A DNA stretch of 64,000 nucleotides. Origin: Lentinula raphanica (taxonomy: Eukaryota; Basidiomycota; Agaricomycetes; Agaricales; Omphalotaceae). This document shows, one piece after another, positions 8,837 to 40,168 of the stretch. A program made the position numbers and the translations under genes. Position 1 is the stretch's first letter, and each line of letters starts with the position of its first letter. The notes beneath the pieces are model-generated. The model did no database searches. It was given only the letters and a program-made list of their open reading frames with translations, and was not told the DNA's origin. The stretch spans positions 1,860,001 through 1,924,000 of the forward strand of contig JANVFP010000001.1 in assembly GCA_027919835.1 (NCBI GenBank). Direction: 5' to 3'.

Positions 8837-8842
8837 ATCAGG
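8837..8842. repeat. Target-site duplication, left copy (ATCAGG)
   Basis: ATCAGG directly precedes the outer left end of the mobile block. The same six bases follow the outer right end at 40169-40174. No such duplication separates the two tandem copies. Confidence 0.85.
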
Positions 8843-8926
8843 TATGACAGCAATTCTGGGACAAAAATAGTATCCGAACTTATTTATGACAGCAATTCTG
8901 GGACAAAAATAGTATCCGAACTTATT
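8843..8926. repeat. Left terminal repeat, present as two 42-bp units
   Basis: The left terminus begins TATGACAGCAATTCTGGGAC. Reverse-complemented, the right end reads TATGACAGCTATTTTGGGAC, an 18 of 20 match. In copy 1 the first 42 bases (8843-8884) are repeated exactly once more (8885-8926) before unique element sequence starts. Copy 2 keeps only the last six bases of this unit. Confidence 0.85.
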
Positions 8927-9410
8927 GCGATCAGATTTATAAGATGCCACTTTATATTCTCGACTTCGGACTTCCATGAATGCAATATGACTTCCAGGCA
9001 TGACTTTTGTGAATGAGACATTGACTTTAGTATTGCTTATTGACATGTACTTTACACGGCTACATAAGCACTGATACATTGAGGCATTACACTTGATATT
9101 GAAGACTTTTGGTGACTGCTCGTTCATTGATTGAAACAACAAATTCACGAGCAGTTGAAAGGAGATGACTTCGACTTGCACCAATTGAACTCATACATAT
9201 CCGCGCCTTGTCCGTAATTGGTACCGCTTCCGGCTTCATCGGTATCCGCCTTCGGCATCCCTTTTTGGCTTCCGCATACGATTTCCCTTTTTGGCTTCCG
9301 TTATCGGTATAGTGCTAATCAGAAAGCTGAGAATATGATATGATAAATTCTGAAATCTCTAAGAATTCTCAACATTTGGAACATTGGAGGGGAAGACATT
9401 TGAGGACACA
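8927..9410. other. Left subterminal region of element, copy 1
   Basis: Non-coding as far as I can see. It includes a short repeat of ctttttggcttccg (two units near 9260-9300) and the probable promoter of gene A. The matching region of copy 2 is 26104-26593. Confidence 0.5.
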
Positions 9411-11471
9411 ATGTACGACCCCGTCGTTGGTAAGCGATGCATGTGGGGCGTGAGAAATCATTAGCAACGACGGGCATCGTTTCTTGCAACATGCATCACT
9501 CTCAGCCTGCATTCAACAACCAGCACCATCCATCCCATCCGGCCGCTCACGACTCTAATAGCCGACAAGAAAGCACTCAGGGCACTCAAGACCCGCTTCT
9601 AGGAACCGGCTGGACCACTGATCACCCTGAGGTTGCTGCAATGGATGGTGACAGCGCTTTCAACGCTGCGGCGTACTCCAACGCCGTATCGACGTATCAA
9701 GACGGTCCGACCGAACGGCCTTGGAGATCTACAGAGGAATATAACGTGAATGCGGCACGAATTGATATAGGATCGAGGCTGAATAGTGCGTTGAGGTTTC
9801 TTGTTATGTTGTGATGTAATGTTAATGAATTATTGTGTTGATAGATATCATATTGTACTTAGCTCTTACTCTCCATGCTCAGGAATCTCCCTCGTTGATA
9901 TATGAGCTGGTGATCCAGCCAAAAGCCGAGACCGTCATCACACAAAACGGCGTTCCTACGATCAGCGCGATTTCCGCGATTTCACTGGTTGCGGGGGTCA
10001 AACTTCCGGAAGCGTTCCGCGAAGCGTTCAAGAACGACGCAACGGCTCTTGCAACCGCCCGCGATATGCCACGAATGTCAAAACCGGTCAACTCTTTGTT
10101 TGAGTTTCGTCAGTTCCCGCCCGCATTAGAGATCTTGACCAGTCCTACCTCAAATTATCAACTTCAGTCGATTGTTGAGAACCCAGAGGAAATCTTGAGC
10201 CGCCCACGAATGCTGAAGTTTGTGCTGATTCTATTACAACCGGTGAGCTTGCTGACAGCTGATCCTAACAACCTTTGTATTGAATGCATTTCAGTATTCG
10301 ATTTCTCAGAATACCGGACCAACGTATTCCTCGGCGGGCCAATCTCCTTACTCGGTACCTCAGCCTGCGACGCCTGCGTACTCTTCGTCCGCTAACGCAT
10401 GGTCGGTCGATTCTCTGTCTGCTAACACGTGGTTGGCTGACGGCGCGTGGTCGTCCGATTCTTCATCTGCTAACGCGTTGTCCGATCCTTCGTCTGCTAA
10501 CGCGATGTCTGATCCTTCGTCTGCTAACGCGATGTCCGATCCTTCGTCTGCTAACGCGATGTCCAATCCTTCGTCTGCTGACGCGATGTCCGATAACGCG
10601 TGGTCGTCCGATTCGTCGTCTGCTAACGCGTGGTCTACTAACGCTTGGTCTGTACAAGGTGATACGTCTTTTGAGGAGACGAATAGATCTGCTCCGATGC
10701 CGTATCCATACTCGACGCTGGAAAACTTGTCTGTCCAGGAAGACCCTTCTGAACCACAGGGAAACCCTTCTGAGTTACAGGAAGGCGCATTGCCGACGTC
10801 TTCACATGAGGTAGTACCGGATGAGATGCTCTCTCAGCCTGCGGAATCTTCTAATGCTCATGGTCCCTCGTCGGCGCCCGTTCGTGCGTGGAATATTGAT
10901 CACGCTTGCGAACTTTTACAGATCAGTAAACCTCATGGAACCACGTATTCGACTGAATGGTTGTCAGTCGTCGTACAAGACTGGCATCGAATCAGATCAC
11001 TTATCTTTGGCATGGGGTATAAAGAAAGAAAGGGCGATAAAGACCTGTCTGAACAGTTTTATCAATGGGAGGACGGGATGATCGATTCGTTCGAGACCAT
11101 CCTCAAACGAGTGAATTGGACTAAGGAGGAATACATGGCTAAAACCAATCTGTTTCTTTGGGCTAACAAGATTGCTGCTGAGAAAATGTGGGATCCCAAC
11201 GTGATTGAGCCTGCTGACCCAGGTACGTCAACTGCTTTTGTAATGTGAAAATTTCTAACTAGCATTATCAGTTCAAAGGCAGAATTATCAAGAGGCCGTT
11301 GATACCTGGCAACTAATCGTCGACTTTTTCCAGAATACGTCCTCCCAATACTCTGGTTATCCAGAATTGTTGCCAGAGGACTCGCCGGATGCCAGGCTGG
11401 CAAGCTTGACCCGATCTCGTATGAAGCACCATCGAAGAATGATCATGGACTGCCTTGTTGACCGTCCTTAG
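9411..11471 (+). CDS. Element gene A, unknown protein (copy 1)
   Basis: Unrecognised protein of about 615 residues. My exon model is 9411-9429, 9465-9785, 9863-10242, 10295-11222 and 11272-11471; the summed length is a multiple of three and all borders are GT-AG. The first 35-base intron is short, so translation might instead begin at 9491. The N-terminus is His/Asn/Gln-rich. The middle carries 9-residue repeats of the type DPSSANAMS, encoded by near-perfect 27-bp tandem units at about 10477-10590, within a Ser/Ala/Trp-rich stretch. The C-terminal third looks folded, with motifs such as WNIDHACELLQI and LFLWANKIAAEKMW. No catalytic motif is evident. It is the leftmost gene of the element and is preserved in both copies, which suggests a role for the element. 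Confidence 0.65.
10477..10590 (+). repeat. 27-bp tandem repeats inside gene A
   Basis: About four units encoding variants of the 9-residue motif DPSSANAMS. They stay in frame and also keep two other frames open, which produces misleading alternative frames on both strands. The same array is at about 27660-27773 in copy 2. Confidence 0.8.
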
Positions 11472-11759
11472 CTTCTTTTTTCCATGTTTGCTGTTTGTGC
11501 TGTCTGACCATGCTTTTAGTTATGAAATCTGCTCTTGCTATAATTGAACCACTTACTCGATCCCATGTATCATAATAAATCGGATCTATGCTTTTTATGA
11601 CAATCTTGTGCGCGAACGAAATGAGACATTATCAAACCCATAACCCACCACTGTGAATATTTGTCGGACTTGATTAATACAATCTCAATTTCCCATTACA
11701 ACAAGTTGTGTTCAAGATCATACAGAGGGAATACAAGACGATACGGTAATACAAAATGG

Positions 11760-13947
11760 TCAATCAACGGGAACAATGGAGTGTGGAATTGAGGCTGCGC
11801 GCGCAAATACCAATAAAAAAGATGTGGTATAGAAGTATGCTAATGCTTGTTCGACCTGTTCGAGATGAGTAATATAATTATGGGCTTCATAATCGTCAGG
11901 AAAATCACAATGCAACTCTTCTGGTTTGTCGCCTTTCCAGCTTCTCATCAGGTGATGTAAAGCGTGGATGTAAGGCGCACGTTTCTGTACAGTAGGGGCT
12001 CCAAGTCCTTCATCTCCCTTGTCGATATCTACCTGAGACCTAGACCCCACCCAACATGCATCCAGCAAGGCATCCCGTTCAGCCAGAGAGAGTCTGCTTT
12101 TGTCTAGCTGGCGATCCAACGCGACCAATTCCTGACGGAAACTCAATTCGGATATCTCCCAGATGATTTGAGACGCAATCTTCTTGGGGGGTGGTTCATT
12201 TTTGCAGTCGACTGGTTGACCTGCAAATTCCTCGATTTGAGGCGTTGGATCATCAAGATTTAATGAGTGAGAGCTGCTTTGAGTGATCAGAGTCTCGACA
12301 ACGATGCGCATTTCGTTTCGAAGAATGGCATTTTTTGTTTGTGTAGAGGTGCTCGGAGCATGGCCCCCGACAACATCGAGCAGGCAGCGCCATTGTTTGG
12401 CAGACAAGTTCACTGGCTTTGTCAAACCGTCGAGAGATTGTAAAATAAACGGACGAATCTTGAGCCAGCTACGGTAATAAAACGCCCGTGTACTTGGATT
12501 TGCCGGCCCATCTAGCAATCTAGGAGGAGGGAGGAAATAACCAGATTCGAGGGTCTCAGGCCGTCGAAGCGACTGGTTATAGGTGGAGTGATACTCGAGA
12601 GCTCGTGCCCAAGCCGAGATCGCAGGCGGCATTGCTGGACTTTTCAGTTGAAGAAAGGTATTGATCCCTTGCTTGTGAAGTTGTGGCTGCTTGCGATTTT
12701 TCTGAGAATCTATTCAAGATGAGTCGTTTGATGAAAATTGCAATGTGTAATGAGATCTTACATGGCGCGGGCCTCATGGACGAGCGTAAGGTCGAATTGG
12801 GGTGGTTTAGACCGCTAGAACTGGCGTGACCGGCAGAATGATTTAAGGTTGCCCTGGTCGAGATGGCTTTTTGGAAAGAGGATAAGCTCTGCATCTGATG
12901 GGATCCGAAGACGGACGAGGGGTAGAGCAACGATTGCAAATAAGCATGCATTGCCGCGAAGCACTCTGGTTTATTGGTTGGACCTTCCCATATGATCTTG
13001 TGGCTAGGTTCAGCATCAGTGCCGTCCACCCGAAAACCAGAAGGTAGTTCAATGATTCGTGAGCTGTCCTCAGCGATCAAAGAAGCAACACGGTCGATTC
13101 GGGCATCAGGGGTGTTTTTGACTGGGCGAACAAACCAAACCGGGATTCCCAGACAGTACAACGTGTCAGCGGTAGAACTATTGTCTGTAAACGCTCCGAT
13201 AACAGCCAGACAGTCTAGGATTTCGCAGTTCCGCTTCTTTCCGATTATGACAGTGTTCCAATCTTGAGAACGGTACTGAATGCGGGCGTCTAATTCCAGA
13301 ATACTGCGTTGCAAAAATGCAACACGCAGAAGAATATCCTCACGAGGAGCCGCAACCTGCAATAAACTGAGCATACGATCGACCTGAAGTGAACCCTGCG
13401 TGAGATATGGATCGGATTGGAATTCACTGAGATTTATGGTCTTGAGAACGTCATCCGCAAGAGCTTTTAGGCGTAGATAAACTGTGGTGTCCAATACGAC
13501 AGCATTATACAAAAAGTCTGATGCTTCGGCGTCGAAGTCTTCAGCTGAAGGTATCAACCAGGCAGCTGCAAACGGATGATTTGGATCAGGAGAAGGTGTT
13601 CGAATTAATGGCAAATGTGGCCGTGTTTCGTCAAAGGGTTGTGGGTAGAAGAGGGGATCATCATGTGAAAAATGAAAGTGGCGACGTAGGCGTACACGTC
13701 GGGATGACAAGGGTGGTGCATATAGTACATTCGAATTAGGGGATGATATCAGGTAATCGTTTGGTAGTACAGCGCCTACTCGACCATCGAACGATTGTAG
13801 AGCTGTGGTAGATTATGAATGGATGGAGGTGGACGAGGCAGAATTAATACACGTACTTGAAGCTGGGTCAGAAAACCGGGTTAAGATGTCTGGATGAAGG
13901 CGATATGTCGCATAGCTTAGCGGAGGGATGCTTGAGGCATTGGACAT
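11760..13947 (-). CDS. Element gene B, unknown protein (copy 1, intact)
   Basis: Unrecognised protein of about 693 residues. The model has three exons: 13947-13857, 13802-12762 and 12709-11760, with introns of 54 and 52 bases; the frame is continuous and the sum is a multiple of three. The start at 13947 gives MSNASSIPPLSYATYR. Visible features are CLAVIGAFTDNSSTADTLY followed by LGIPVWFVRPV in the first half, and FYYRSWLKIRPFILQSLDGL in the second. From memory, similar "AFT...G-P-W-VR" proteins form large, uncharacterised, repeat-associated families in Agaricomycetes; I cannot confirm this here. There is no recognisable enzyme motif. It ends 288 bases from gene A (convergent) and starts 479 bases downstream of gene C on the same strand. 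Confidence 0.65.
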
Positions 13948-14425
13948 GGTGGTCGCGACTGTGGTCTGGCTGACCTACAGGACTCCGTCTACGAGGTTGT
14001 AATGTAAGCAAACTAGAATAGATTGAAGAAAAAAATAACGGTCACAACCGGTCTTAACACAGGCGGTCTCTCTACCGTCCTGAGTGCAGGCAGTGTGAGG
14101 ACTGCTTGGCACGATGGGAGGTCTTCAGCAGAACAATGGGTGACGATGGGGTGACAGGGGAGGGGAAGATAAACAATAGTAGAAACAGGCCGAGGTAGAT
14201 TACTGATACCCACGTCGGAAGCTCACGTGAATATCACGGAGCACCTAATTACCCGAGATCCCCGATTCCTGTTCCCAATAAGGATATATTCGATATGATT
14301 GATCAAAGCTGTTCATTCAACTCTGGAATACGAGTCTACGACAAAAATATCATGCGGACAGAATATTATAGGGTAGATGTAGCCTATGTAGGGTAGATAT
14401 ATGAAACTTCAAGCAGTCTGATAAA
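13948..14425. other. Spacer between genes C and B (copy 1)
   Basis: Promoter side of gene B and 3' side of gene C, both on the minus strand. Short imperfect repeats of tagggtagat occur near 14370-14400. I see no gene here. The copy 2 equivalent is 31130-31607. Confidence 0.5.
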
Positions 14426-17400
14426 CTAAACAATATTGTAAGACCCGATTCCAGTAAGGATTTGAACGAGAAGCCAGTGGAAAACGATGTCCTTGAGGTT
14501 GTATAGCTGCTCCGGACCACTGTCATACGAAGCATTCAAGAGCTTCAAGAGATACGAAGCAGGGACTTGCATAACGCGGGTACAGGTCTTAAAGGCGATA
14601 GTTCCAAGTTTCAGGAGCCTCTCTCTCTCGGTCATGCGATGGTCTTGAAGGCTGAAGTACATGGGATCACTATCGTCAATGAGGATGACCTTTTGTAACA
14701 TATCATTACAGTGAAAGGGTATTACGAATCGGTAGTTACGCACCTCGATTGGTGACCCATCGGTCAGGATGAATGGTGAGCCCGTAGCTGCCCAGCAAAA
14801 CATACGCATGCGATAGCTTTTTTCTGAGGAATCTTCAAGCGAGACAACATCGGTAAAGCTGCCTCGCACTTCTGCCATGAGCAAGGGGCAGGGTATACCA
14901 GAGCCCTCAAGAAACTCTCGAAAGATATCTTCGAAGCTGCATCCAGACCAACCAGGAACTCCTTCGTAGGCATCACGAAGCTCAGCGTGAGTAACCACGG
15001 AGGTTCTATCGGTGTATTCCAGCCGGAGCGCTTCATAATCGCCAGTGATGCGTGATTGCAAGAGCGACAGAACGAACTCGTCTATTCCCCCAACACAAGC
15101 AGCTGCAAGCTGTAGAAAAGTTGAGGTTAGATAATCACTCGAACTCAACGATTAGGATCAACGTACCTCTGGTAAGTCGAGCCCGATAGGTTTACAAGGA
15201 AGGAAGAGACCTTTCAACAATGCTTTGAAGTACGGGTGATCAGTTGTTGCAGGACCGACAATCGCGTTGTGTAACATCGTCCAAGCAAGTGAGCGGTGGT
15301 GCCTTTCTGTACGGCCTTGTAAAACTGTGACCTGGATCAAGACCCGTTAATGTAGTTCTGAGAGATGAGTATATGACATACTGGAAGATTATGATAGGTT
15401 GCAAAGTGAGACTCGAAGTACGATAGATTGTTGTTAGAATGTTCAAGGTCAATCCAGCGAGTAAGGGTTTGATACAATTCTGGGAACTGGTCCTTCACGA
15501 GGTCCTTCGTTAACGATTTCAGGTTGCTCGAGTTGAGGAGGTAGACGAGAAGAAGAGGGTTGATGTTCAATGGATAGTTTCCATGGACAAGAGCTAAACC
15601 TATAGCGGCACCGAAAACGGTGAGCTCATTCTTCTTAGTCGCAGATAGATCCGCAGCTGAGGAGAGGGGCGCCGTAGAAAGAGTTGTATAATCGTCATTG
15701 ACCAGGATCAGATAATCATGTATATGACCTTCGAGTTTTGCCTTGAAGAAGAGGCTCATGACCTCCTTCTCGAGGCCGGGCCCAGAGGTTATATAGGACT
15801 CGACACCACGATCGTCAATAGCGATTCTTGATGACAAGCGATTAGCTTTTGTGAAACACTAACCGACGACGGTAAATGAAAACTCACAGTTGGAAATGTC
15901 TGTTTTGGGAGAGGAGTGCCGAGAAATCTTCTTCGTCTATTGCACGCTGTACGAGATCGGTGTAAACGGGAACCATTTCTTGTGGACTTTCGCCTTTGAC
16001 CATAAAACCCAAAGGCTCAATGTCCATAACGTTGCGAATGCGATCGTTGACTATCTTGAAAATCTTTGATCTGTCTTTTACGAAGAACAATTCATCGTCG
16101 GCGTTGTCACGAGCAGGTACCCAGTCGGTCTCCCACAAAATTTCGACCTCCTATATTTGAGCTATTAACATTCAAGGAGGACTAATTGAAAGAGGCTTCT
16201 TACTTCTGATCCCGCATCTTCAGTCAACATATTCGTTCGGGACAGGGGGCTGACTGAACGGTGGTCCGGAGTCCTTAATCGTCTTGGGTTGCGAGAACTC
16301 GATGCGGCGTTTGAATCCACTACCCAAGATAACATGATATGGAATACAGATAGGATGGATACGAGTGTAGACCTACCTGTGAGCGTTTCAGAGGTATCAT
16401 GGAGCATTCGAGCGACAACTCTGAGTTCCTATACAAAGAATTAATCAATGACTTGAAACTATAGTAGCATGCACATACCTCATCTTCATGGTTCGAATCA
16501 TCTCTGTTGCATCCTAGCTCGATGTCGTCCTCATCAAGCGCGTCAAATCCTTCGTCCACATATGCGTCCGTGTCCGAGCGAAAAATACCATAGATTCGCT
16601 TCGATAGGCAGAAATGTCTACGGGTAGTATTGTCGGATCCAAGACTCTTTTCCGCTAGGTTGATATTGAGCGAAACGTTCGGAGATCGAATGACTAGCAT
16701 AGGAAAGGACCTTGAGATAGAGAACGTGAAAAGGTCATCGAGGACTTACTCGTATGAAGGATAAATTTTTTCGAATTGGTAATGACATACTTTGCGATGC
16801 CGTAGTCGTCCGTGTTGAAGACAATGTCACGCAAAGTCATGTCTTCAGATTGCACCTTCCCTGGGCTCAATCGAGGGGTCTTTGCGTGGTTGTTGATGTT
16901 TCCTTTGCTTGAGAAGCGCAATAGCTGGATAGCGAGACGCTCGTGCCGATTGAAGAAAGACGATGCTTCTTGATTTTCTGGGAATATCCAGCCGTGCTGA
17001 ACAAGGGAAGAGCGTACGGCTTCAAGTAAATCTACCACTTTTGTGTGAAGCGGAAGGTGATCGAATCGATGTACAAGAGAGAGTGCGTCGAGTACAGCTT
17101 GAAACGCATCGCGATTTTGCAAGTAATGATGAAGTTCGACGGGAACATTGTACGTCTGCGGTAATTCACATCGTCAACAAGATAGAGTAGTCCTCTCAGA
17201 AACAGAACACGTACACGACACTGGTCAGGTGTAAGCCGTGGCGGATAGACTAAGACCACCAAGCTAACCACCTGAGTTCCATCACTTGCAAGTGCGACTG
17301 CATCCTCGATCTTAGGGGCATCGATCGCTCCAAACAGTCGGGGTGCCTTCTTCCCGGAGCCTCTCTTCTTTCTTGTGGCAGTGGAAGATTGACCCAGTGT

Positions 17401-18030
17401 TAGAGTGGCATGGCCTAGACGGTCGCGATTGGCGTGTTGTATCGCAGTGATGCTTGGAGGGAAGGACTGTGGTGGTGGCAACATAGAGGTCGGTAAGGGG
17501 CGGGATGGTCCGCTATTAGGAGCTCTCTGGGCCGTCACTGATGAAAGCATTGAAACCGGTGATACATAGTTAGAGACGGGCTGAATGGCCTGCGACTGCG
17601 GCAAGGAGTTTGAGTTGGGAGTTGGTGGTAGTAAAGCGCCCACAGCCTGTGAAAAATTAAGATTGAGAGGTGCAGGCGCAGGAGGTGCAAGTACAGGCGC
17701 AGGAGGTACAGGTGCAGGTGCAGGTACAGGTGCAGGTGCAGGTACAGGTGCAGGTGCAGGTACAGGTGCAGGTACAGGTGCAGGTGCAGGTGCAGGAATG
17801 GCTGTCAAAGGCACAGAAGCTAACGAAGGCAGAGGAGCAGGAACAGCCGGCGACGACGCAGAATTTGGGGCAGAAGTGACTGGTTGTAATAGCTGTGGAT
17901 TGGACGCCAATGAATTAGATGAGGATGTAGACTGTGTTTGATTATTTTGCTGTAGCATCTGGAGAAAGAGTTGGGGATTGTTGGCAATCATTGCCTGAAA
18001 CGAATGTTGCAACCATTGGGAATGATCCAT
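14426..18030 (-). CDS. Element gene C: HECT-type E3 ubiquitin ligase-like protein (copy 1, intact)
   Basis: Nine-exon model: 18030-17215, 17155-16791, 16710-16479, 16428-16377, 16319-16204, 16150-15888, 15826-15382, 15331-15167 and 15109-14426. It sums to 1046 codons. The N-terminus is low-complexity: Gln/Asn-rich, then an Ala-Pro-Val repeat, then a basic RKKRGSGKKAPR patch. An acidic linker follows. From about residue 615 it resembles a HECT lobe: FFKAKLEGHIHDYLI, FGAAIGLALVHG (686-697), FPELYQTLTRWIDL, and near the C-terminus FKTCTRVMQVP with the candidate catalytic cysteine at 994, followed by about 50 residues ending in hydrophobic GSYNIV. HECT enzymes form a ubiquitin thioester on that cysteine. 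The threonine before it is kept, but the usual histidine is lysine, so activity is an inference. The gene diverges from the integrase gene. Confidence 0.72.
17689..17800. repeat. Hexamer repeat coding Ala-Pro-Val run in gene C (copy 1)
   Basis: Tandem ggtgca/ggtaca hexamers on the plus strand. Read in the gene C frame on the minus strand they give a proline-alanine-valine repeat. The copy 2 equivalent is about 34870-34981. The repeat creates open shadow frames (Gln-Val and Cys-Thr runs) that I do not regard as genes. Confidence 0.75.
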
Positions 18031-18249
18031 GATGCTTTTCAAAACCATACGTATCAGTACGGTTGCAGTAAAAGGAGTGGGCACTTACGGTTGGTGAAAG
18101 AAAACGAAAGAGCGAACAGGAAAGGTCAGAACAAGTGCTAATTGGATGGAGAAAGAGAGAGCTGGGCTTTTATACGAATCGCAGGTGAACGTCATCCCTA
18201 TTTTGAACATTGACGCGAAAGTCAAGATCCAAAAACGGTTGAAATTTGA
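18031..18249. promoter_or_regulatory. Shared divergent promoter of integrase and HECT gene (copy 1)
   Basis: Only about 220 bases separate the start codons of gene C (minus) and the integrase (plus). On the minus strand TATAAAAG (18167-18174) is a good TATA box for gene C, about 140 bases upstream of its ATG. A GTAAGT donor at 18089 suggests a 5' untranslated intron that ends just before the ATG. No clear TATA element is seen for the integrase side. Confidence 0.5.
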
Positions 18250-19593
18250 ATGCTTCGAAGTTGTACGAATATGGAAATATGTAGTATTCACATGATTTCG
18301 TCAGCCGACGCTCGAGTCGTTGTTGACGACTTCTTCAAGTTGAACAGAACCATGGCGCGGTACTGGTCAATACGATTTCATGCCTTCCTCCTAGCGTGGT
18401 ACATCCTTGTCAGGCTACATTTCTGCAACGCCGTCATTATCAATACTGGAATAGTTCAATCCTCCAGTTCGAACGATTTGCTTCAGGAATTTCGACGACA
18501 CTATCATGAATTCAATACAGCTGTTCACCAAGTAGCCAACGATCAAACGGATGTCTTTCATCTCCAGCTGTTGTTAGAAGACATGGGTGAATTCTCTCAG
18601 CTTGTCTCTCAGGTTCGTCATTTAGGTCTTACCTTCTTGCACTCTTCATTGAATTTTCTCCCATGAACAGTATGCGAGTGTATTTCTAGACCAATCCGAA
18701 TGGCAAATCCTTCGTGACAATCTACAGCTCATGATACTTGATGTCCAAACTATCCGAAGCCGCCGTCTTGAGGAATCTCACCATGGCCGTCCAGAAGTCT
18801 TACAATGGTCGAGAAACGGCTCAGCCGGTCGTCCTCGAGCAGTCATTGACCCTAGCTTTCTGCAATGGGCACACACTCATCGTACTACAACCGGAATTGC
18901 TGAATTTCTCGGAATAAGCCGTAGAACGGTACGAAGATCGCTTCTAGAATATGGCCTTGTCACCCCAGGAGGTGTCCCATTTGAAGGCCAAGTTTCTATC
19001 GAGGACAACACCGATCTCAATCCCAATCTCGAAATTCCTGCTAGCTTCCATCCTGACATTGAAAACGCAGCAACTTCAATTCCCTCATCTTCATCTAGTC
19101 GTCGCTCAAATATGTCCAACGATACTCTTGATTCACTCGTCAGTTTACTGCGGACCCATTATCCTCGAGCAGGGATCCAGATGCTTCATGGAATGCTCCG
19201 AAGGCTCGGGCAGGTTGTTCCGTACGAAAGCATCCGCCACTCACTCATACGAGTAGATCCTGTGCACCGTGTCTTTGACCGTATTCGAATTCGTCGTCGT
19301 CGGTATAGCGTACCTGGTCCTAATTCTCTATGGCATCATGATGGCCATCATCGTGAGGATGCTTAGCATATTCGTTTTATCGATTATCTGACGTGTTCAC
19401 AGGTCTAATCAGGTGGGGAATAGTCATCCATGGATTCATCGATGGCTATTCTCGAATGATCACAGGTCTTCAAGCTGCCAACAACAATCGTCCGTCAACG
19501 GTCCTTTCGTTATTTCTCTCTGCCGCATCACAGTACGGACTTCCATCTCGGGTACGCGGCGACCACGGGGTTGAAAACGTATGGGTCGCAGCA

Positions 19594-19600
19594 TTCATGG
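19594..19600. repeat. Target duplication TTCATGG, left of foldback element
   Basis: TTCATGG occurs here and at 22711-22717 flanking the insert, and only once at the empty site in copy 2 (about 36775-36781). This gives a clean 7-bp target duplication. Confidence 0.85.
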
Positions 19601-22600: not shown

Positions 22601-22710
22601 ACCACCCCCCGGAGCCATTTCCGGGACCCCCTCCGGGTTATCACAACTATTTGCAATAGGTACCCGATAACTTATTGGTACTTTTTACAAAAGTTTTACA
22701 GTATCAGCTG
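19601..22710. mobile_element. Non-coding foldback element with about 1.49-kb inverted arms
   Basis: A 3110-base insert flanked by a 7-bp duplication. Left arm (19601 to about 21087) and right arm (about 21228 to 22710) are reverse complements, nearly perfect over the outer 1.2 kb and roughly three-quarters identical near the loop. The loop is about 140 bases. Termini begin CACAGGATAC and, reverse-complemented, CAGCTGATAC. The body is A/T-rich and has no credible gene; the short frames near the centre mirror each other in the two arms. It is a non-autonomous element whose superfamily I cannot assign: a 7-bp duplication with CA ends does not settle it. The empty site in copy 2 proves it inserted after the two copies separated, or was lost cleanly from one. 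Confidence 0.85.
20020..20470. repeat. Direct repeat of about 225 bp within each arm
   Basis: The segment starting near gatctcatcttgtagc (about 20035) recurs, diverged, from gatctcatctaatag (about 20260), including a shared ggccctgaaaatgcaaaat block. The same pair appears inverted in the right arm at about 21840-22290. A further, weaker unit may start near 20500. Confidence 0.6.
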
Positions 22711-26103: not shown

Positions 26104-26593
26104 CTTATTGCGATCAGATTTATAAGATGCCACTTTATATTCTCGACTTCGGACTTCCATGAATGCAATATGACTTCCAGGCATGACTTTTGTGAATGAG
26201 ACATTGACTTTAGTATTGCTTATTGACATGTACTTTACACGGCTACATAAGCACTGATACATTGAGGCATTACACTTGATATTGAAGACTTTTGGTGACT
26301 GCTCGTTCATTGATTGAAACAACAAATTCACGAGCAGTTGAAAGGAGATGACTTCGACTTGCACCAATTGAACTCATACATATCCGCGCCTTGTCCGTAA
26401 TTGGTACCGCTTCCGGCTTCATCGGTATCCGCCTTCGGCATCCCTTTTTGGCTTCCGCATACGATTTCCCTTTTTGGCTTCCGTTATCGGTATAGTGCTA
26501 ATCAGAAAGCTGAGAATATGATATGATAAATTCTGAAATCTCTAAGAATTCTCAACATTTGGAACATTGGAGGGGAAGACATTTGAGGACACA

Positions 26594-28654: not shown

Positions 28655-28942
28655 CTTCTTTTTTCCATGTTTGCTGTTTGTGCTGTCTGACCATGCTTTT
28701 AGTTATGAAATCTGCTCTTGCTATAATTGAACCACTTACTCGATCCCATGTATCATAATAAATCGGATCTATGCTTTTTATGACAATCTTGTGCGCGAAC
28801 GAAATGAGACATTATCAAACCCATAACCCACCACTGTGAATATTTGTCGGACTTGATTAATACAATCTCAATTTCCCATTACAACAAGTTGTGTTCAAGA
28901 TCATACAGAGGGAATACAAGACGATACGGTAATACAAAATGG

Positions 28943-31129
28943 TCAATCAACGGGAACAATGGAGTGTGGAATTGAGGCTGCGCGCGCAAATACCAATAAA
29001 AAAGATGTGGTATAGAAGTATGCTAATGCTTGTTCGACCTGTTCGAGATGAGTAATATAATTATGGGCTTCATAATCGTCAGGAAAATCACAATGCAACT
29101 CTTCTGGTTTGTCGCCTTTCCAGCTTCTCATCAGGTGATGTAAAGCGTGGATGTAAGGCGCACGTTTCTGTACAGTAGGGGCTCCAAGTCCTTCATCTCC
29201 CTTGTCGATATCTACCTGAGACCTAGACCCCACCCAACATGCATCCAGCAAGGCATCCCGTTCAGCCAGAGAGAGTCTGCTTTTGTCTAGCTGGCGATCC
29301 AACGCGACCAATTCCTGACGGAAACTCAATTCGGATATCTCCCAGATGATTTGAGACGCAATCTTCTTGGGGGTGGTTCATTTTTGCAGTCGACTGGTTG
29401 ACCTGCAAATTCCTCGATTTGAGGCGTTGGATCATCAAGATTTAATGAGTGAGAGCTGCTTTGAGTGATCAGAGTCTCGACAACGATGCGCATTTCGTTT
29501 CGAAGAATGGCATTTTTTGTTTGTGTAGAGGTGCTCGGAGCATGGCCCCCGACAACATCGAGCAGGCAGCGCCATTGTTTGGCAGACAAGTTCACTGGCT
29601 TTGTCAAACCGTCGAGAGATTGTAAAATAAACGGACGAATCTTGAGCCAGCTACGGTAATAAAACGCCCGTGTACTTGGATTTGCCGGCCCATCTAGCAA
29701 TCTAGGAGGAGGGAGGAAATAACCAGATTCGAGGGTCTCAGGCCGTCGAAGCGACTGGTTATAGGTGGAGTGATACTCGAGAGCTCGTGCCCAAGCCGAG
29801 ATCGCAGGCGGCATTGCTGGACTTTTCAGTTGAAGAAAGGTATTGATCCCTTGCTTGTGAAGTTGTGGCTGCTTGCGATTTTTCTGAGAATCTATTCAAG
29901 ATGAGTCGTTTGATGAAAATTGCAATGTGTAATGAGATCTTACATGGCGCGGGCCTCATGGACGAGCGTAAGGTCGAATTGGGGTGGTTTAGACCGCTAG
30001 AACTGGCGTGACCGGCAGAATGATTTAAGGTTGCCCTGGTCGAGATGGCTTTTTGGAAAGAGGATAAGCTCTGCATCTGATGGGATCCGAAGACGGACGA
30101 GGGGTAGAGCAACGATTGCAAATAAGCATGCATTGCCGCGAAGCACTCTGGTTTATTGGTTGGACCTTCCCATATGATCTTGTGGCTAGGTTCAGCATCA
30201 GTGCCGTCCACCCGAAAACCAGAAGGTAGTTCAATGATTCGTGAGCTGTCCTCAGCGATCAAAGAAGCAACACGGTCGATTCGGGCATCAGGGGTGTTTT
30301 TGACTGGGCGAACAAACCAAACCGGGATTCCCAGACAGTACAACGTGTCAGCGGTAGAACTATTGTCTGTAAACGCTCCGATAACAGCCAGACAGTCTGG
30401 GATTTCGCAGTTCCGCTTCTTTCCGATTATGACAGTGTTCCAATCTTGAGAACGGTACTGAATGCGGGCGTCTAATTCCAGAATACTGCGTTGCAAAAAT
30501 GCAACACGCAGAAGAATATCCTCACGAGGAGCCGCAACCTGCAATAAACTGAGCATACGATCGACCTGAAGTGAACCCTGCGTGAGATATGGATCGGATT
30601 GGAATTCACTGAGATTTATGGTCTTGAGAACGTCATCCGCAAGAGCTTTTAGGCGTAGATAAACTGTGGTGTCCAATACGACAGCATTATACAAAAAGTC
30701 TGATGCTTCGGCGTCGAAGTCTTCAGCTGAAGGTATCAACCAGGCAGCTGCAAACGGATGATTTGGATCAGGAGAAGGTGTTCGAATTAATGGCAAATGT
30801 GGCCGTGTTTCGTCAAAGGGTTGTGGGTAGAAGAGGGGATCATCATGTGAAAAATGAAAGTGGCGACGTAGGCGTACACGTCGGGATGACAAGGGTGGTG
30901 CATATAGTACATTCGAATTAGGGGATGATATCAGGTAATCGTTTGGTAGTACAGCGCCTACTCGACCATCGAACGATTGTAGAGCTGTGGTAGATTATGA
31001 ATGGATGGAGGTGGACGAGGCAGAATTAATACACGTACTTGAAGCTGGGTCAGAAAACCGGGTTAAGATGTCTGGATGAAGGCGATATGTCGCATAGCTT
31101 AGCGGAGGGATGCTTGAGGCATTGGACAT
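28943..31129 (-). pseudogene. Element gene B, copy 2, frameshifted
   Basis: Identical to gene B of copy 1 except for a leucine-to-proline change (30399) and loss of one G in a run (29369-29373, five G instead of six). The deletion lies in the last exon, shortly after NEPPP, and shifts the frame so that about 190 C-terminal residues are replaced by a short tail. A single-base change in a homopolymer could also be an assembly error. Confidence 0.7.
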
Positions 31130-31607
31130 GGTGGTCGCGACTGTGGTCTGGCTGACCTACAGGACTCCGTCTACGAGGTTGTAATGTAAGCAAACTAGAA
31201 TAGATTGAAGAAAAAAATAACGGTCACAACCGGTCTTAACACAGGCGGTCTCTCTACCGTCCTGAGTGCAGGCAGTGTGAGGACTGCTTGGCACGATGGG
31301 AGGTCTTCAGCAGAACAATGGGTGACGATGGGGTGACAGGGGAGGGGAAGATAAACAATAGTAGAAACAGGCCGAGGTAGATTACTGATACCCACGTCGG
31401 AAGCTCACGTGAATATCACGGAGCACCTAATTACCCGAGATCCCCGATTCCTGTTCCCAATAAGGATATATTCGATATGATTGATCAAAGCTGTTCATTC
31501 AACTCTGGAATACGAGTCTACGACAAAAATATCATGCGGACAGAATATTATAGGGTAGATGTAGCCTATGTAGGGTAGATATATGAAACTTCAAGCAGTC
31601 TGATAAA

Positions 31608-34600
31608 CTAAACAATATTGTAAGACCCGATTCCAGTAAGGATTTGAACGAGAAGCCAGTGGAAAACGATGTCCTTGAGGTTGTATAGCTGCTCCGGACC
31701 ACTGTCATACGAAGCATTCAAGAGCTTCAAGAGATACGAAGCAGGGACTTGCATAACGCGGGTACAGGTCTTAAAGGCGATAGTTCCAAGTTTCAGGAGC
31801 CTCTCTCTCTCGGTCATGCGATGGTCTTGAAGGCTGAAGTACATGGGATCACTATCGTCAATGAGGATGACCTTTTGTAACATATCATTACAGTGAAAGG
31901 GTATTACGAATCGGTAGTTACGCACCTCGATTGGTGACCCATCGGTCAGGATGAATGGTGAGCCCGTAGCTGCCCAGCAAAACATACGCATGCGATAGCT
32001 TTTTTCTGAGGAATCTTCAAGCGAGACAACATCGGTAAAGCTGCCTCGCACTTCTGCCATGAGCAAGGGGCAGGGTATACCAGAGCCCTCAAGAAACTCT
32101 CGAAAGATATCTTCGAAGCTGCATCCAGACCAACCAGGAACTCCTTCGTAGGCATCACGAAGCTCAGCGTGAGTAACCACGGAGGTTCTATCGGTGTATT
32201 CCAGCCGGAGCGCTTCATAATCGCCAGTGATGCGTGATTGCAAGAGCGACAGAACGAACTCGTCTATTCCCCCAACACAAGCAGCTGCAAGCTGTAGAAA
32301 AGTTGAGGTTAGATAATCACTCGAACTCAACGATTAGGATCAACGTACCTCTGGTAAGTCGAGCCCGATAGGTTTACAAGGAAGGAAGAGACCTTTCAAC
32401 AATGCTTTGAAGTACGGGTGATCAGTTGTTGCAGGACCGACAATCGCGTTGTGTAACATCGTCCAAGCAAGTGAGCGGTGGTGCCTTTCTGTACGGCCTT
32501 GTAAAACTGTGACCTGGATCAAGACCCGTTAATGTAGTTCTGAGAGATGAGTATATGACATACTGGAAGATTATGATAGGTTGCAAAGTGAGACTCGAAG
32601 TACGATAGATTGTTGTTAGAATGTTCAAGGTCAATCCAGCGAGTAAGGGTTTGATACAATTCTGGGAACTGGTCCTTCACGAGGTCCTTCGTTAACGATT
32701 TCAGGTTGCTCGAGTTGAGGAGGTAGACGAGAAGAAGAGGGTTGATGTTCAATGGATAGTTTCCATGGACAAGAGCTAAACCTATAGCGGCACCGAAAAC
32801 GGTGAGCTCATTCTTCTTAGTCGCAGATAGATCCGCAGCTGAGGAGAGGGGCGCCGTAGAAAGAGTTGTATAATCGTCATTGACCAGGATCAGATAATCA
32901 TGTATATGACCTTCGAGTTTTGCCTTGAAGAAGAGGCTCATGACCTCCTTCTCGAGGCCGGGCCCAGAGGTTATATAGGACTCGACACCACGATCGTCAA
33001 TAGCGATTCTTGATGACAAGCGATTAGCTTTTGTGAAACACTAACCGACGACGGTAAATGAAAACTCACAGTTGGAAATGTCTGTTTTGGGAGAGGAGTG
33101 CCGAGAAATCTTCTTCGTCTATTGCACGCTGTACGAGATCGGTGTAAACGGGAACCATTTCTTGTGGACTTTCGCCTTTGACCATAAAACCCAAAGGCTC
33201 AATGTCCATAACGTTGCGAATGCGATCGTTGACTATCTTGAAAATCTTTGATCTGTCTTTTACGAAGAACAATTCATCGTCGGCGTTGTCACGAGCAGGT
33301 ACCCAGTCGGTCTCCCACAAAATTTCGACCTCCTATATTTGAGCTATTAACATTCAAGGAGGACTAATTGAAAGAGGCTTCTTACTTCTGATCCCGCATC
33401 TTCAGTCAACATATTCGTTCGGGACAGGGGGCTGACTGAACGGTGGTCCGGAGTCCTTAATCGTCTTGGGTTGCGAGAACTCGATGCGGCGTTTGAATCC
33501 ACTACCCAAGATAACATGATATGGAATACAGATAGGATGGATACGAGTGTAGACCTACCTGTGAGCGTTTCAGAGGTATCATGGAGCATTCGAGCGACAA
33601 CTCTGAGTTCCTATACAAAGAATTAATCAATGACTTGAAACTATAGTAGCATGCACATACCTCATCTTCATGGTTCGAATCATCTCTGTTGCATCCTAGC
33701 TCGATGTCGTCCTCATCAAGCGCGTCAAATCCTTCGTCCACATATGCGTCCGTGTCCGAGCGAAAAATACCATAGATTCGCTTCGATAGGCAGAAATGTC
33801 TACGGGTAGTATTGTCGGATCCAAGACTCTTTTCCGCTAGGTTGATATTGAGCGAAACGTTCGGAGATCGAATGACTAGCATAGGAAAGGACCTTGAGAT
33901 AGAGAACGTGAAAAGGTCATCGAGGACTTACTCGTATGAAGGATAAATTTTTTCGAATTGGTAATGACATACTTTGCGATGCCGTAGTCGTCCGTGTTGA
34001 AGACAATGTCACGCAAAGTCATGTCTTCAGATTGCACCTTCCCTGGGCTCAATCGAGGGGTCTTTGCGTGGTTGTTGATGTTTCCTTTGCTTGAGAAGCG
34101 CAATAGCTGGATAGCGAGACGCTCGTGCCGATTGAAGAAAGACGATGCTTCTTGATTTTCTGGGAATATCCAGCCGTGCTGAACAAGGGAAGAGCGTACG
34201 GCTTCAAGTAAATCTACCACTTTTGTGTGAAGCGGAAGGTGATCGAATCGATGTACAAGAGAGAGTGCGTCGAGTACAGCTTGAAACGCATCGCGATTTT
34301 GCAAGTAATGATGAAGTTCGACGGGAACATTGTACGTCTGCGGTAATTCACATCGTCAACAAGATAGAGTAGTCCTCTCAGAAACAGAACACGTACACGA
34401 CACTGGTCAGGTGTAAGCCGTGGCGGATAGACTAAGACCACCAAGCTAACCACCTGAGTTCCATCACTTGCAAGTGCGACTGCATCCTCGATCTTAGGGG
34501 CATCGATCGCTCCAAACAGTCGGGGTGCCTTCTTCCCGGAGCCTCTCTTCTTTCTTGTGGCAGTGGAAGATTGACCCAGTGTTAGAGTGGCATGGCCTAG

Positions 34601-35211
34601 ACGGTCGCGATTGGCGTGTTGTATCGCAGTGATGCTTGGAGGGAAGGACTGTGGTGGTGGCAACATAGAGGTCGGTAAGGGGCGGGATGGTCCGCTATTA
34701 GGAGCTCTCTGGGCCGTCACTGATGAAAGCATTGAAACCGGTGATACATAGTTAGAGACGGGCTGAATGGCCTGCGACTGCGGCAAGGAGTTTGAGTTGG
34801 GAGTTGGTGGTAGTAAAGCGCCCACAGCCTGTGAAAAATTAAGATTGAGAGGTGCAGGCGCAGGAGGTGCAAGTACAGGCGCAGGAGGTACAGGTGCAGG
34901 TGCAGGTACAGGTGCAGGTGCAGGTACAGGTGCAGGTGCAGGTACAGGTGCAGGTACAGGTGCAGGTGCAGGTGCAGGAATGGCTGTCAAAGGCACAGAA
35001 GCTAACGAAGGCAGAGGAGCAGGAACAGCCGGCGACGACGCAGAATTTGGGCAGAAGTGACTGGTTGTAATAGCTGTGGATTGGACGCCAATGAATTAGA
35101 TGAGGATGTAGACTGTGTTTGATTATTTTGCTGTAGCATCTGGAGAAAGAGTTGGGGATTGTTGGCAATCATTGCCTGAAACGAATGTTGCAACCATTGG
35201 GAATGATCCAT
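31608..35211 (-). pseudogene. Element gene C (HECT-like), copy 2, frameshifted near the N-terminus
   Basis: Same nine-exon gene as copy 1. One G is missing at 35049-35051 (three G instead of four), near codon 55, just after the Gln/Asn-rich start. The frame then ends early, so the HECT region would not be made unless translation restarts downstream, for instance at an in-frame ATG after the Ala-Pro-Val repeat. The HECT exons themselves look undamaged. As with gene B, a homopolymer error in the assembly is possible. Confidence 0.7.
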
Positions 35212-35430
35212 GATGCTTTTCAAAACCATACGTATCAGTACGGTTGCAGTAAAAGGAGTGGGCACTTACGGTTGGTGAAAGAAAACGAAAGAGCGAACAG
35301 GAAAGGTCAGAACAAGTGCTAATTGGATGGAGAAAGAGAGAGCTGGGCTTTTATACGAATCGCAGGTGAACGTCATCCCTATTTTGAACATTGACGCGAA
35401 AGTCAAGATCCAAAAACGGTTGAAATTTGA
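35212..35430. promoter_or_regulatory. Shared divergent promoter of integrase and HECT gene (copy 2)
   Basis: Same 219-base spacer as in copy 1, with the minus-strand TATAAAAG at about 35348-35355 and the same 5' intron donor. Confidence 0.5.
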
Positions 35431-37500
35431 ATGCTTCGAAGTTGTACGAATATGGAAATATGTAGTATTCACATGATTTCGTCAGCCGACGCTCGAGTCG
35501 TTGTTGACGACTTCTTCAAGTTGAACAGAACCATGGCGCGGTACTGGTCAATACGATTTCATGCCTTCCTCCTAGCGTGGTACATCCTTGTCAGGCTACA
35601 TTTCTGCAACGCCGTCATTATCAATACTGGAATAGTTCAATCCTCCAGTTCGAACGATTTGCTTCAGGAATTTCGACGACACTATCATGAATTCAATACA
35701 GCTGTTCACCAAGTAGCCAACGATCAAACGGATGTCTTTCATCTCCAGCTGTTGTTAGAAGACATGGGTGAATTCTCTCAGCTTGTCTCTCAGGTTCGTC
35801 ATTTAGGTCTTACCTTCTTGCACTCTTCATTGAATTTTCTCCCATGAACAGTATGCGAGTGTATTTCTAGACCAATCCGAATGGCAAATCCTTCGTGACA
35901 ATCTACAGCTCATGATACTTGATGTCCAAACTATCCGAAGCCGCCGTCTTGAGGAATCTCACCATGGCCGTCCAGAAGTCTTACAATGGTCGAGAAACGG
36001 CTCAGCCGGTCGTCCTCGAGCAGTCATTGACCCTAGCTTTCTGCAATGGGCACACACTCATCGTACTACAACCGGAATTGCTGAATTTCTCGGAATAAGC
36101 CGTAGAACGGTACGAAGATCGCTTCTAGAATATGGCCTTGTCACCCCAGGAGGTGTCCCATTTGAAGGCCAAGTTTCTATCGAGGACAACACCGATCTCA
36201 ATCCCAATCTCGAAATTCCTGCTAGCTTCCATCCTGACATTGAAAACGCAGCAACTTCAATTCCCTCATCTTCATCTAGTCGTCGCTCAAATATGTCCAA
36301 CGATACTCTTGATTCACTCGTCAGTTTACTGCGGACCCATTATCCTCGAGCAGGGATCCAGATGCTTCATGGAATGCTCCGAAGGCTCGGGCAGGTTGTT
36401 CCGTACGAAAGCATCCGCCACTCACTCATACGAGTAGATCCTGTGCACCGTGTCTTTGACCGTATTCGAATTCGTCGTCGTCGGTATAGCGTACCTGGTC
36501 CTAATTCTCTATGGCATCATGATGGCCATCATCGTGAGGATGCTTAGCATATTCGTTTTATCGATTATCTGACGTGTTCACAGGTCTAATCAGGTGGGGA
36601 ATAGTCATCCATGGATTCATCGATGGCTATTCTCGAATGATCACAGGTCTTCAAGCTGCCAACAACAATCGTCCGTCAACGGTCCTTTCGTTATTTCTCT
36701 CTGCCGCATCACAGTACGGACTTCCATCTCGGGTACGCGGCGACCACGGGGTTGAAAACGTATGGGTCGCAGCATTCATGGAACATGCTCGGGGACCAGG
36801 GCGAGGATCATACATCTGGGGACGGTATGTAGGACTCGTGATTATCATAACATACAACGCTCATTCGTATCTCAGGTCGGTACACAATGTTCGCATTGAA
36901 AGATTATGGGTCGACGTGTCGAACTACATATCACAGCGCTGGAACACTCACTTTACTCGATTAGAGGACGACCATCAGCTCGACGTGAACAACCGAAATC
37001 ATATATGGCTTCTACAGCATCTCTTTCTTCCTGTCATCAATCACTCCTTGTATTTTTGGGTCCAATCATGGAACTGCCATCGTATTTCTCAGCGCCGTGG
37101 TGATGGACCGACCCGTAGCCCGGAGGACATGTGGGGCTTTGATATGCTTTCCCAAGGAATCCGGGGCGATTCGTTAGATCAATTCACAATGAGCGATGAA
37201 GAACTTCAGGAGTTTGGAATTGATTGGGAAGGAGTTCGGGACGAGACATTGTTAGATTCCCTTCGTCAGAATTACGCACACGAGCAAGGAGCTAATACAT
37301 GGCATGGACAACACGGACCTCCGGCACAGCTCAACTCCGTAGAGGTTGAGCCCCCTTCAGGTTCAATGACAGCTGATCAAATACAACGGATGGACGAAGT
37401 CATTGACTCGCTAGACCGAAGTTCTAATGAAGGTGATGTAGTGAATCTGTGGCGCACTGGGCTTGTACATGCTCGAACTACCTGTCCTCACGCTTTCTAG
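35431..37500 (+). CDS. DDE integrase/transposase (IS3/retroviral-like), copy 2, intact
   Basis: Predicted to cut and join element ends. Exons 35431-35793, 35852-36533, 36584-36824 and 36876-37500 sum to 637 codons. The first start is uncertain; an ATG 33 codons later is an alternative. Residues 193-215 (TTGIAEFLGISRRTVRRSLLEYG) form a helix-turn-helix like the resolvase/IS3 type. The catalytic core spans introns: WHHDGHHRLIRWG with D345, then [22 protein letters not shown] with D402, and SVHNVRIERLW with E437. The 34-residue gap between the last two matches the D,D(35)E integrase signature. A conserved-looking MWGFDMLSQGIRG block follows, then an acidic, probably flexible tail. Joining the last two exons restores GRSVHNVRIERLW, which supports the intron. 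This is the only intact integrase in the window. Confidence 0.88.
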
Positions 37501-38018
37501 TCATCAGAACTCTTACAGTATGTTTCTCAATTATTCCCTATCGTCTTATTTTTTTTTTGTTTTGCAGCTGTGCCAGAATAGCATTACTTGGTATTGTGTA
37601 TGTCGAATCTCCTTTGTTTTTCATGTATATATCGCCATCCAGTTGTCTTGATATGCCCAAGGTGTGTGATAAACAGCATTCACAAAGTACCCACTTAATT
37701 CTTTCTGTGTAGCTCTTACGGCTGGTGCGGTCATTGATTCCAATGATTGTTGTTCCCCATACCGTTCCCGTATACGATACATTTGCTTTGCCCCACCAAA
37801 CGTGTTGAACGAATATCTGCCATGCTCCTCTCCTCCTCCTAGTTATCAAATCTGGTTCAACCCTCTCAACCTCGTATATTCGTCCCTCATCGACGCCGCA
37901 TTGCTCTTCTTACTGACGAGAAAGTAATGCGGTTGGACTCGTACTCGCGTTACGGCGCCTAAACGTTTTCCACGCTCATTCGATTGCTACTTCCCTTGAC
38001 CATCTCTTCTATACTTGC

Positions 38019-38320
38019 ATGCGTACCCTCTCTACCTCACAAACGATGCCTCGCCGACGATCAAAACGGACCGATAACAGATTTCATCCCTATCCGATGA
38101 CCCAAAGAAAACAGGTAACGGAAATCGTTGCCTTGCTGTTTACCTTCAGACTGACAAACGCCGTCAGAAACATGAACCTGAGTACCTCTTCGACAACTGG
38201 ATGTACCTCGACAACTGGATGTTCTTCGACAACTGGATGTTCTGGAATTTCGTGCGTGGTTACTTCAATTGTTATAGTATTGTCCTCATTCACCACTCAG
38301 GTCGCTATTCTTTATCCTGA
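38019..38320 (+). CDS. Possible small gene D with FDNWM repeats (copy 2)
   Basis: Identical in sequence to the copy 1 candidate, with the same 35-base intron ambiguity. A weak call. Confidence 0.3.
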
Positions 38321-38997
38321 ACGCTTTGGGCCCCGCTAGACTCTACTCCAAACCATCGCTTGATTCATATGATCAAAAGGAGAAGGCATCTTGGTATGAC
38401 TATGCACCAATCTCAGAACGAATTCGCCTGACTTTCGTACTATGTTCGTTCAGAAACCACGAAACCAAACCACATTCCATAGTCCTCAACGTGTCGACCT
38501 TCACCCGTTTCCTTCGTTAACCTCCGTTTACGGATATGCGGTCGGTGGTGGTTCTCGTTGTATCGTGCCCGTCTTGCCATATTTGTGCTATTGTATCTCA
38601 GTGCTATATCTATATTGATGATCTTGGCTTGTAACAGTGGTTCAGTAAGTCTTACAAGGTTTCTATTGCTCAGAAAGTATGAGTCGTCATGAAAATCGGC
38701 GCCTAAGAATGTCTTTAAGTAACCCGTTCCTCAACATCCAAGTAATCTCAATTCTCATTCAGCCTTTCTCGATTCTAACACTCTTTTTTCTTCATCTAGA
38801 TGGCAAGAAGCAAAGAAATCGTTCCCGGCGCTGAACGTTTCTCCCTCACCCAGGTCGCTGCAAAGTGCGGTCTGTGAAAAATCCGAAAAGCCTGCTATCG
38901 AGCCCACGCCGGAAACCGTAGAAAACTCCCTCGGCGGTGACACAAACGGTGGCAAGTGTCTCGTCCCCACCTCCAAAGCACCTCGATTCTAGTCTGC

Positions 38998-39705
38998 AGA
39001 GGACGGCCACCAACCAAAGAAGAGCCGTAAGAGCGCTAAATCGACCAAGCTTCACTCTTCAATAACGCCTTGCACTGTCTTGATTCTGCTGGAAGGACCA
39101 AACCGAGAATATTGGCATCGAAATGGAGTTGGATTTGAAATCATCGAAGAGAGGTCAGACTATGCTTCGACGACGTAAGACTTATGATAACATGCTTCTG
39201 TACTATGAATCGTTCAATTCTACTTTGCAGAGGACGTCCGCCAACCAAAGGAGATCCGTAAAACCGCTAAACCGACCAAGCTCTACCCTCATTGCCACCA
39301 TCTTCTACTTTGAAGAGGACGTCCGCCAACCAAAGGAGAGCCGTAAAACCGCTAAACCGACCAAGCTCCACCCTCATCGCCGCCATCAAGAAAATTGAGA
39401 ACCTTGGCAAATACCTCAAGTTGTCTTGGGTTTTGTCCAAGGGCCAGTATCCTCAGAGATGGTTTTCTAAGCATCGGAATGGAGCTGGATTGGAGATTAT
39501 CATCAAAGAGAGGTCAAATTCTGCTTCGACGACGTAGGACTTATGATAACATGCTTCTGTACTATGAATCGTTCTTTATATTTTCTAGTATCCTCACGAG
39601 ATGGTTTTCTGAGCATCGGAAAGGAGCTGGATTGGAGATTATCAAGCAGAGGTCCAATTCTGCTTCAACGACGTAGGACTTATGATAACATGCTTCTGCA
39701 CTATA
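38998..39705 (+). repeat. Degenerate direct-repeat region near right end (copy 2)
   Basis: Same interleaved 85-bp and 142-bp spaced repeats as in copy 1, apparently unchanged. Confidence 0.65.
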
Positions 39706-40148
39706 ATATATTGATAGAACAGGCGGGCCAATCATTACTAGTCAACATGCGAAAGTATCGCATCTTGTTGCCAGAACCATCAGTCTCTACACTCGATTCA
39801 TGAGTCTTTTTGAACGGATTCGTTGTTCATTGGCCACTGTTGAAAGTCTTCAGGTCAGGACTCAATGTAAAACGACCACTGTGGAAAGTCTGCATATCAT
39901 AACTCAAAGTAAACCGAATATTGAGAGGAGTAAATATGTTCTTTCCAATTCTGAGAAGTCTTATGTCAATAACACTGAGTAAATACTCATTACACTCAAG
40001 TCAAAACTCAAAGTTTCAATGTCTATTTGAGTATTAGTCTCTAGTGAGAAGTCTTTGTTGTGATTTCAGTCGAAAGTCAGCGGTTGCGGCAGCGGAACTC
40101 GGTCCAAGTCGATACCGAAAGTGTGAGAACGGGTCAAAGTCAAATAAA

Positions 40149-40168
40149 GTCCCAAAATAGCTGTCATA
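40149..40168 (-). repeat. Right terminal inverted repeat, outer end of block
   Basis: Ends GTCCCAAAATAGCTGTCATA, and is followed directly by the right copy of ATCAGG. Confidence 0.85.

Follow-up and report, generated by a model that had tools for sequence, protein, structure and literature searches.

A recently mobile multi-gene transposon family of probable IS3EU kind in Lentinula raphanica

The stretch of DNA analysed here (64,000 nucleotides of contig JANVFP010000001.1 of Lentinula raphanica, referred to as the window) contains a 14.1-kb DNA transposon twice, in copies that are 99.9% identical, one inside the other. L. raphanica is an agaric, a wood-rotting mushroom of the shiitake genus. 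The element carries four genes, here called A, B, C and D, the last of which encodes an integrase-type transposase. It represents a real, recently mobile family of multi-gene transposons, probably of the IS3EU kind, whose most unusual feature is an exchangeable slot: the position between A and C is held by gene B in one group of elements (group I, to which the window copies belong) and by an unrelated gene, E, in another (group II). Very probably this is a large cut-and-paste transposon with all the parts of an autonomous element, in which A and C, together with B or E, are lasting parts kept by selection. Eukaryotic cut-and-paste transposons are usually regarded as machines of one or two proteins. 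In this genome, diverged subfamilies keep four genes together and in order, with selection acting on them, and one position holds either of two unrelated genes.

Nested copies in the window

The outer copy occupies positions 8843-8884 and 26104-40168 (+ strand, 14,101 bp in all), the left piece being made up of 36 bp of the element and 6 bp duplicated by the inner insertion. The inner copy, at 8885-26103 on the same strand, is 17,219 bp long with a 3.1-kb insert and 14,102 bp without it. Upon comparing the window with itself, the 42 bp at 8843-8884 were found to be identical to 8885-8926, and positions 8920-19604 and 22711-26103 matched 26103-36785 and 36775-40168, respectively, at more than 99.9% identity each. 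The two copies differ by four substitutions, three homopolymer-length differences and one palindromic insert of 3.1 kb. A base difference at 19601 belongs to the edge of this insert and is not counted among the four.

The outer element is interrupted after 36 bp and the hexamer CTTATT by the complete inner element, and restarts with CTTATT at 26104. The region 8843-40168 is a self-insertion: a second copy landed after the first 36 bp of its sister's left end. The near-identity of the copies implies recent movement, and the position of the inner insertion, 36 bp from the sister's terminus, shows that such elements can enter their own kind. A tandem or composite arrangement is ruled out because the inner copy is surrounded by its own CTTATT duplication. 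An earlier sequence-only reading had placed a transposon of roughly 14 kb in this region; its ends and its outer duplication are real, and the region is two nested copies, not one element.

Termini and target-site duplications

The terminal motif TATGACAGC occurs four times in the window, against 0.46 expected, a count reached in none of 100 shuffles. They mark the four element ends: the + strand sites begin at 8843 and 8885, and the - strand sites end at 26103 and 40168. The left terminal inverted repeat, TATGACAGCAATTCTGGGAC (8885-8904, + strand), agrees at 18 of 20 bases with the right one, TATGACAGCTATTTTGGGAC (40149-40168 and also 26084-26103, - strand). The outer copy is flanked by an exact 6-bp target duplication, ATCAGG (8837-8842 and 40169-40174), and the inner copy by CTTATT (8879-8884 and 26104-26109), likewise exact. 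The inverted ends, the 6-bp duplication and the size of about 14 kb given by the sequence-only reading are thus borne out.

Termini of the form TATGA...TCATA are present in all 16 group-I and all four group-II elements that have both ends (group II among the matches listed). Perfect 6-bp duplications flank 15 of these 16, with the window pair counted, and three of these four. An end-like repeat, TATGACAGATATTATGGGAC or a form one base off, is found away from the gene set at C7:186102, C7:199736, C16:408172 and C6:1604044 (contigs are cited by our own handles), and may be the sign of a further family, related or non-autonomous.

Copies across the genome

The genome was searched with each of the four genes and the places were clustered, which showed A, B, C and D repeatedly side by side. 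The searches score the best candidates only, and absences from them are not proof. Clustering, with about one row per place, took 76 of 93 rows for D, 37 of 78 for B, 32 of 136 for C, 29 of 72 for A and 32 of 88 for E, together with 14 right-end places from 22 rows.

The end pattern TATGAMASCWATTYTGGGAC is present at 25 places exactly and at six more with one mismatch; at up to three mismatches there are 69 places, against 24 for a reversed control pattern. Each of the 31 places with no more than one mismatch is the end of an element with the gene set; the C50 element is cut off by the contig edge and retains A and B only. None of the 31 belongs to an integrase-only copy. Beyond the window pair, both ends enclose A, B, C and D in 14 further elements, 13 of which have perfect 6-bp duplications. 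Eleven of the 14 are 12.2-16.3 kb long; the other three (19.5, 33.0 and 44.6 kb) have probably been enlarged by nested insertions. Of 23 gene B copies with at least 55% identity, 17 are adjoined by A, C and D, the remaining six being partial, split or isolated. The genes are linked in other strains as well: the locus tags of a gene C protein (P0001) and a gene B protein (P0024) are neighbours, and the contig of each is 9,872 bp long; a C protein (P0003) and a D protein (P0044), whose tags are those of one strain, likewise each come from a contig of 22,764 bp.

Gene order and selection

In the window's subfamily (the window, C49, C52 and C55) the order is A on the + strand, B and C on the - strand and D on the + strand. 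Twelve other group-I elements with all four genes have the order C and B (+), A (-) and D (+), with the window-type left end at the C side and the right end at the D side. The opposite order and strands between the same ends show that the A-B-C block was inverted as a unit. In both arrangements the gene adjoining D is transcribed divergently from it. The window's order appears to be the derived one, because the other occurs in both groups.

Selection was assessed by counting nonsynonymous and synonymous changes, with bootstrap, in one pair of elements from two subfamilies, that of the window and that at C1:1038501. The ratio of nonsynonymous to synonymous rates (dN/dS) is 0.37 for A (485 codons), a rough value given a synonymous rate (dS) of about 1.0, 0.20 for B (690 codons), 0.28 for C (1019 codons) and 0.16 for D (602 codons). 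The bootstrap limits span 0.12-0.48, all four intervals lying below 0.5. In this pair, A, B, C and D are all kept by purifying selection. The shared gene set, the end sites and ratios well below 1 support the earlier proposal that A, B and C are working parts and not random cargo.

Group II and the exchangeable slot

Diverged elements whose D is 50-69% identical to that of the window gave no match to gene B. In the two of them that were read, an unrelated large gene, E, lies between C and the place of A. The genome search found E in group II and never inside one element with B; a cluster on C11 that holds both consists of two adjacent elements. The group-II end pattern is present at 125 places, compared to 42 for its control, and both ends were located for at least four group-II elements, at a spacing of 20-32 kb. 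In a tree of D, 12 B-type copies split from all others with a support of 1.000 and seven E-type copies form a clade with a support of 0.987, while two copies having neither B nor E fall outside both. No relation between B and E was detectable (hhalign probability 0.3%, with an E alignment of three sequences), and E has no Pfam family above the cut-off and no PDB relative. Gene A was matched in several group-II elements. The element at C4:211783-227159 has A, C and D, and neither B nor E was found in it.

In the group-II element on C30, the stretch from D to the right end contains part of an acetyl-CoA carboxylase gene (C30:567560-569512; Pfam ACCA_BT at E 4e-38, Biotin_carb_C and ACC_central), which looks like a captured host gene.

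The alternation of B and E offers a natural comparison for what accessory proteins do for an integrase-type transposon. One tentative possibility, on the doubtful side, is a modular class of transposon with a fixed apparatus of D, A and C, in which the slot between C and A is exchangeable and the unrelated B and E would act as interchangeable accessory factors, for instance in target choice or in escape from host silencing. If true, the slot would be a eukaryotic parallel to multi-protein bacterial transposons with swapped targeting subunits.

Working parts or cargo

A different origin of the gene set would be a plain one-gene integrase transposon that captured host genes A-C as passive cargo. 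Cargo capture is seen close by, in the carboxylase piece of the C30 element; TET/JBP genes are regarded as passengers carried passively from one fungal transposon to another (PMC12730594, in excerpt); and there are places in the genome with D only. However, gene set and gene order are shared by elements whose D is only about 65-87% identical to that of the window, every gene is under purifying selection in the pair tested, and none of the 31 end sites belongs to an integrase-only copy. Passive cargo is therefore improbable. Ends enclosing the integrase alone, which the sequence-only reading had named as a test of its proposal, did not appear at these sites. On its second test, genes A-C at host loci without the ends, 17 of the 23 B copies keep their three partners and six are partial, split or isolated.

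Several observations weigh against lasting, selected parts in an element of the IS3EU kind. Matching duplications are missing from one of the 16 group-I and one of the four group-II elements. The first exception (C49:281685-294809) has a left flank matching the C50 copy and a right flank matching the C52/C55 site, and is a recombinant between copies or a contig misjoin; the second (C11:634405-654521) simply has unequal flanks. The copies are not all independent, as some contigs look like duplicates of one site: C52 and C55 have a flank in common, and so do C61 and C8:1127277, which are probably duplicates of one site. Partial B copies without the full set make up six of 23 (on C19, C21, C25, C29, C39 and C50). 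Seven places with D have none of A, B, C or E in their cluster (C2:1137 kb, C6:1388 kb, C7:778 kb, C13:255 kb, C21:908 kb, C55:65 kb and C23:192 kb); the last of these lies inside a larger element, and no ends were recognised at the other six. Neither A nor C was detected in every group-II element. With the window's gene A as the query, no match was obtained in those on C30, C31, C61, C8 (1133 kb), C18 (217 kb), C40 and C14, although a remnant of A in C30 was seen with another query; gene C was not matched in those at C8:1163-1181 kb and C8:1264 kb and on C65. Furthermore, no domain points to a role for A, B, C or E, and the likeness to IS3EU is one of ends, duplications and core as described in print.

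The transposase and a proposed mechanism

Gene D of the outer copy (35452-37500, + strand) is open and encodes an integrase-type transposase of 629 amino acids that matches the Pfam family rva_4 at E 2.3e-68. Its catalytic triad, D338-56-D395-34-E430 (DD34E), is kept in 108 of 113, 69 of 71 and 112 of 115 homologues, respectively, that are alignable at each site (best 120 of 513). The family rve is matched at E 1e-6, just under the curated cut-off, and weak N-terminal helix-turn-helix models are found upstream of the core. The protein has no HHCC or CxxC motif, and a phmmer search of the PDB with it gave a best E of 0.088, to unrelated proteins. D-like proteins are widespread, with 513 found; of the 120 listed, those that are named come from mushroom-forming fungi. 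In the inner copy, the palindromic insert splits D (18271-19600, + strand) after the second D and before the E of the triad.

The short TATGAMASC...GGAC ends are most likely bound by the D protein, which would cleave at the TA termini and attach these to target strands with a 6-bp stagger; repair of the gaps would then produce the 6-bp duplications. Cutting and joining by D are proposed on the basis of the ends, the duplications and the enzyme class, as in other integrase-type transposases. Genes A and C and the slot gene, B or E, most likely serve transposition, regulation or host interaction, their conservation arguing for a helper role. We infer both the biochemistry of D and every specific role of the other four genes.

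Genes A, B and C

The splice models of A, C and D are our own choices, and that of B was checked against an annotated protein. Gene A of the outer copy (26674-28654, + strand; about 9491-11471 in the inner copy) is modelled with three introns, the first acceptor being uncertain, and a product of about 600 amino acids; the genome search found its homologues in related elements. Gene B of the inner copy (11763-13947, - strand) encodes 693 amino acids and is identical over its whole length to an annotated 693-residue protein of another L. raphanica strain (P0016). The outer-copy frame (28946-31129) differs from it by one homopolymer base. The AlphaFold model of the B protein (mean predicted confidence, pLDDT, 66.5) matched nothing in the PDB at E <= 0.001, and a separate search found no PDB relative. 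Distant relatives of B (27-42% identity) occur at about a dozen places with no D within 9 kb, for example at C38:158484, C23:735802, C53:93362, C53:121986 and C17:400065, away from any D-like integrase found. They may be host genes or parts of other transposons.

Gene C of the inner copy (14426-18030, - strand) is modelled with nine introns and a product of about 1035 amino acids. The sequence-only reading had called it HECT-like. Of the gene set it proposed, the integrase D and three other spliced genes are present, but the HECT label found no support. The Pfam HECT domain, PF00632, did not match the window's C at E up to 1, nor 15 homologues of C, nor two C-terminal pieces of C at E up to 10. 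PDB profile searches with C gave best E values of 1 and 0.47, neither to a HECT protein, and a search of the genome with PF00632 (14 candidates scored) found only loci other than C. The AlphaFold model has a mean pLDDT of 37.5, too low to judge a HECT fold. The UniRef name of one C homologue, P0004, begins "HECT domain-containing", and a conserved FKTC near the C-terminus looks similar to a HECT active-site region. The HECT identity of gene C is unproven.

No Pfam family was found above the cut-off in A, B or C. Polintons (Mavericks) are similar in size to the window element and carry genes for DNA polymerase B, ATPase, protease and capsid. A Polinton or another virus-like self-synthesising element would share the rve-type integrase and the 6-bp duplications, and both fit (PMC10045372, in excerpt), but Pfam searches of the four genes, taken to E 1, gave no polymerase, ATPase, protease or capsid family, and the inverted repeats are only about 20 bp long. 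Such an origin is scarcely credible.

Other features of the window

The insert that breaks the inner gene D (19601-22710) is a palindromic non-autonomous element whose arms are 96-99% complementary, with a 7-bp duplication, TTCATGG, at 19594-19600 and 22711-22717. At least 40 sequences in the genome match its first 696 bp over nearly the full length, counting the two in the window (best 40 of 892 candidates). Several diverged direct repeats of about 70-125 bp occupy 38980-39710, between gene D and the right end of the element. About 2.3 kb to the left of the insertion, frames at 3123-6535 on the - strand have a protein kinase domain (PF00069, E 3.7e-33) and a KA1 domain, and are probably one host kinase gene.

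Comparison with known elements

The family supplies recently moved copies in a wood-rotting mushroom, and may help to name many agaric proteins that are annotated only as hypothetical or as integrase core. No description of the A-B-C-D gene set was found in searches of the open-licence PMC literature.

According to the excerpted text of PMC10045372, IS3EU elements have TA..TA ends, usually 6-bp duplications, and no HHCC motif. The window element likewise has TA..TA termini, 6-bp duplications and a retroviral-integrase-type DDE core with no HHCC upstream, a likeness that also extends to GingerRoot, in agreement with the fit to IS3EU suggested earlier. In contrast, genes like A, B, C and E are not mentioned for IS3EU in that excerpt. 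Ginger1 and Ginger2 have duplications of 4 or 4-5 bp (same excerpt), unlike the 6 bp of the present family. IS3EU sequences have also been counted in Ganoderma (PMC8955403, in excerpt).

A new superfamily that merely converged on IS3EU in its ends and duplication length is unlikely. It would be in keeping with a likeness of D to IS3EU drawn from the printed description, and with the absence of the Pfam domains TET/JBP, alpha-kinase, GATA, CCHC and DUF3577 from A, B, C and E. Nevertheless, the TA..TA ends, the 6-bp duplications and the integrase-type core without HHCC all match the IS3EU description.

Assignment to the IS3EU kind places the family beside two published relatives. Styx of Zymoseptoria is a recently active fungal element of 7,927 bp with 6-bp duplications; it has four open reading frames and a transposase of the IS3EU-like integrase type. 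It differs in its smaller size, its 36-bp repeats, its partner genes with GATA, CCHC and DUF3577 domains, and its being reported from one ascomycete genus only (PMC10853768, in excerpt). The TET-bearing IS3EU elements of rusts are, like the window element, from basidiomycetes and have several genes in a conserved order and 6-bp duplications; their partners are a TET/JBP dioxygenase and an alpha-kinase, their ends are TAYGG..CCRTA, and their repeats exceed 30 bp (PMC12730594, in excerpt). The earlier view of a complex relative of IS3EU is supported, although multi-gene elements of this type were already in print. With Styx and the rust elements known, the window family is probably a variant of the IS3EU kind and not its first multi-gene member.

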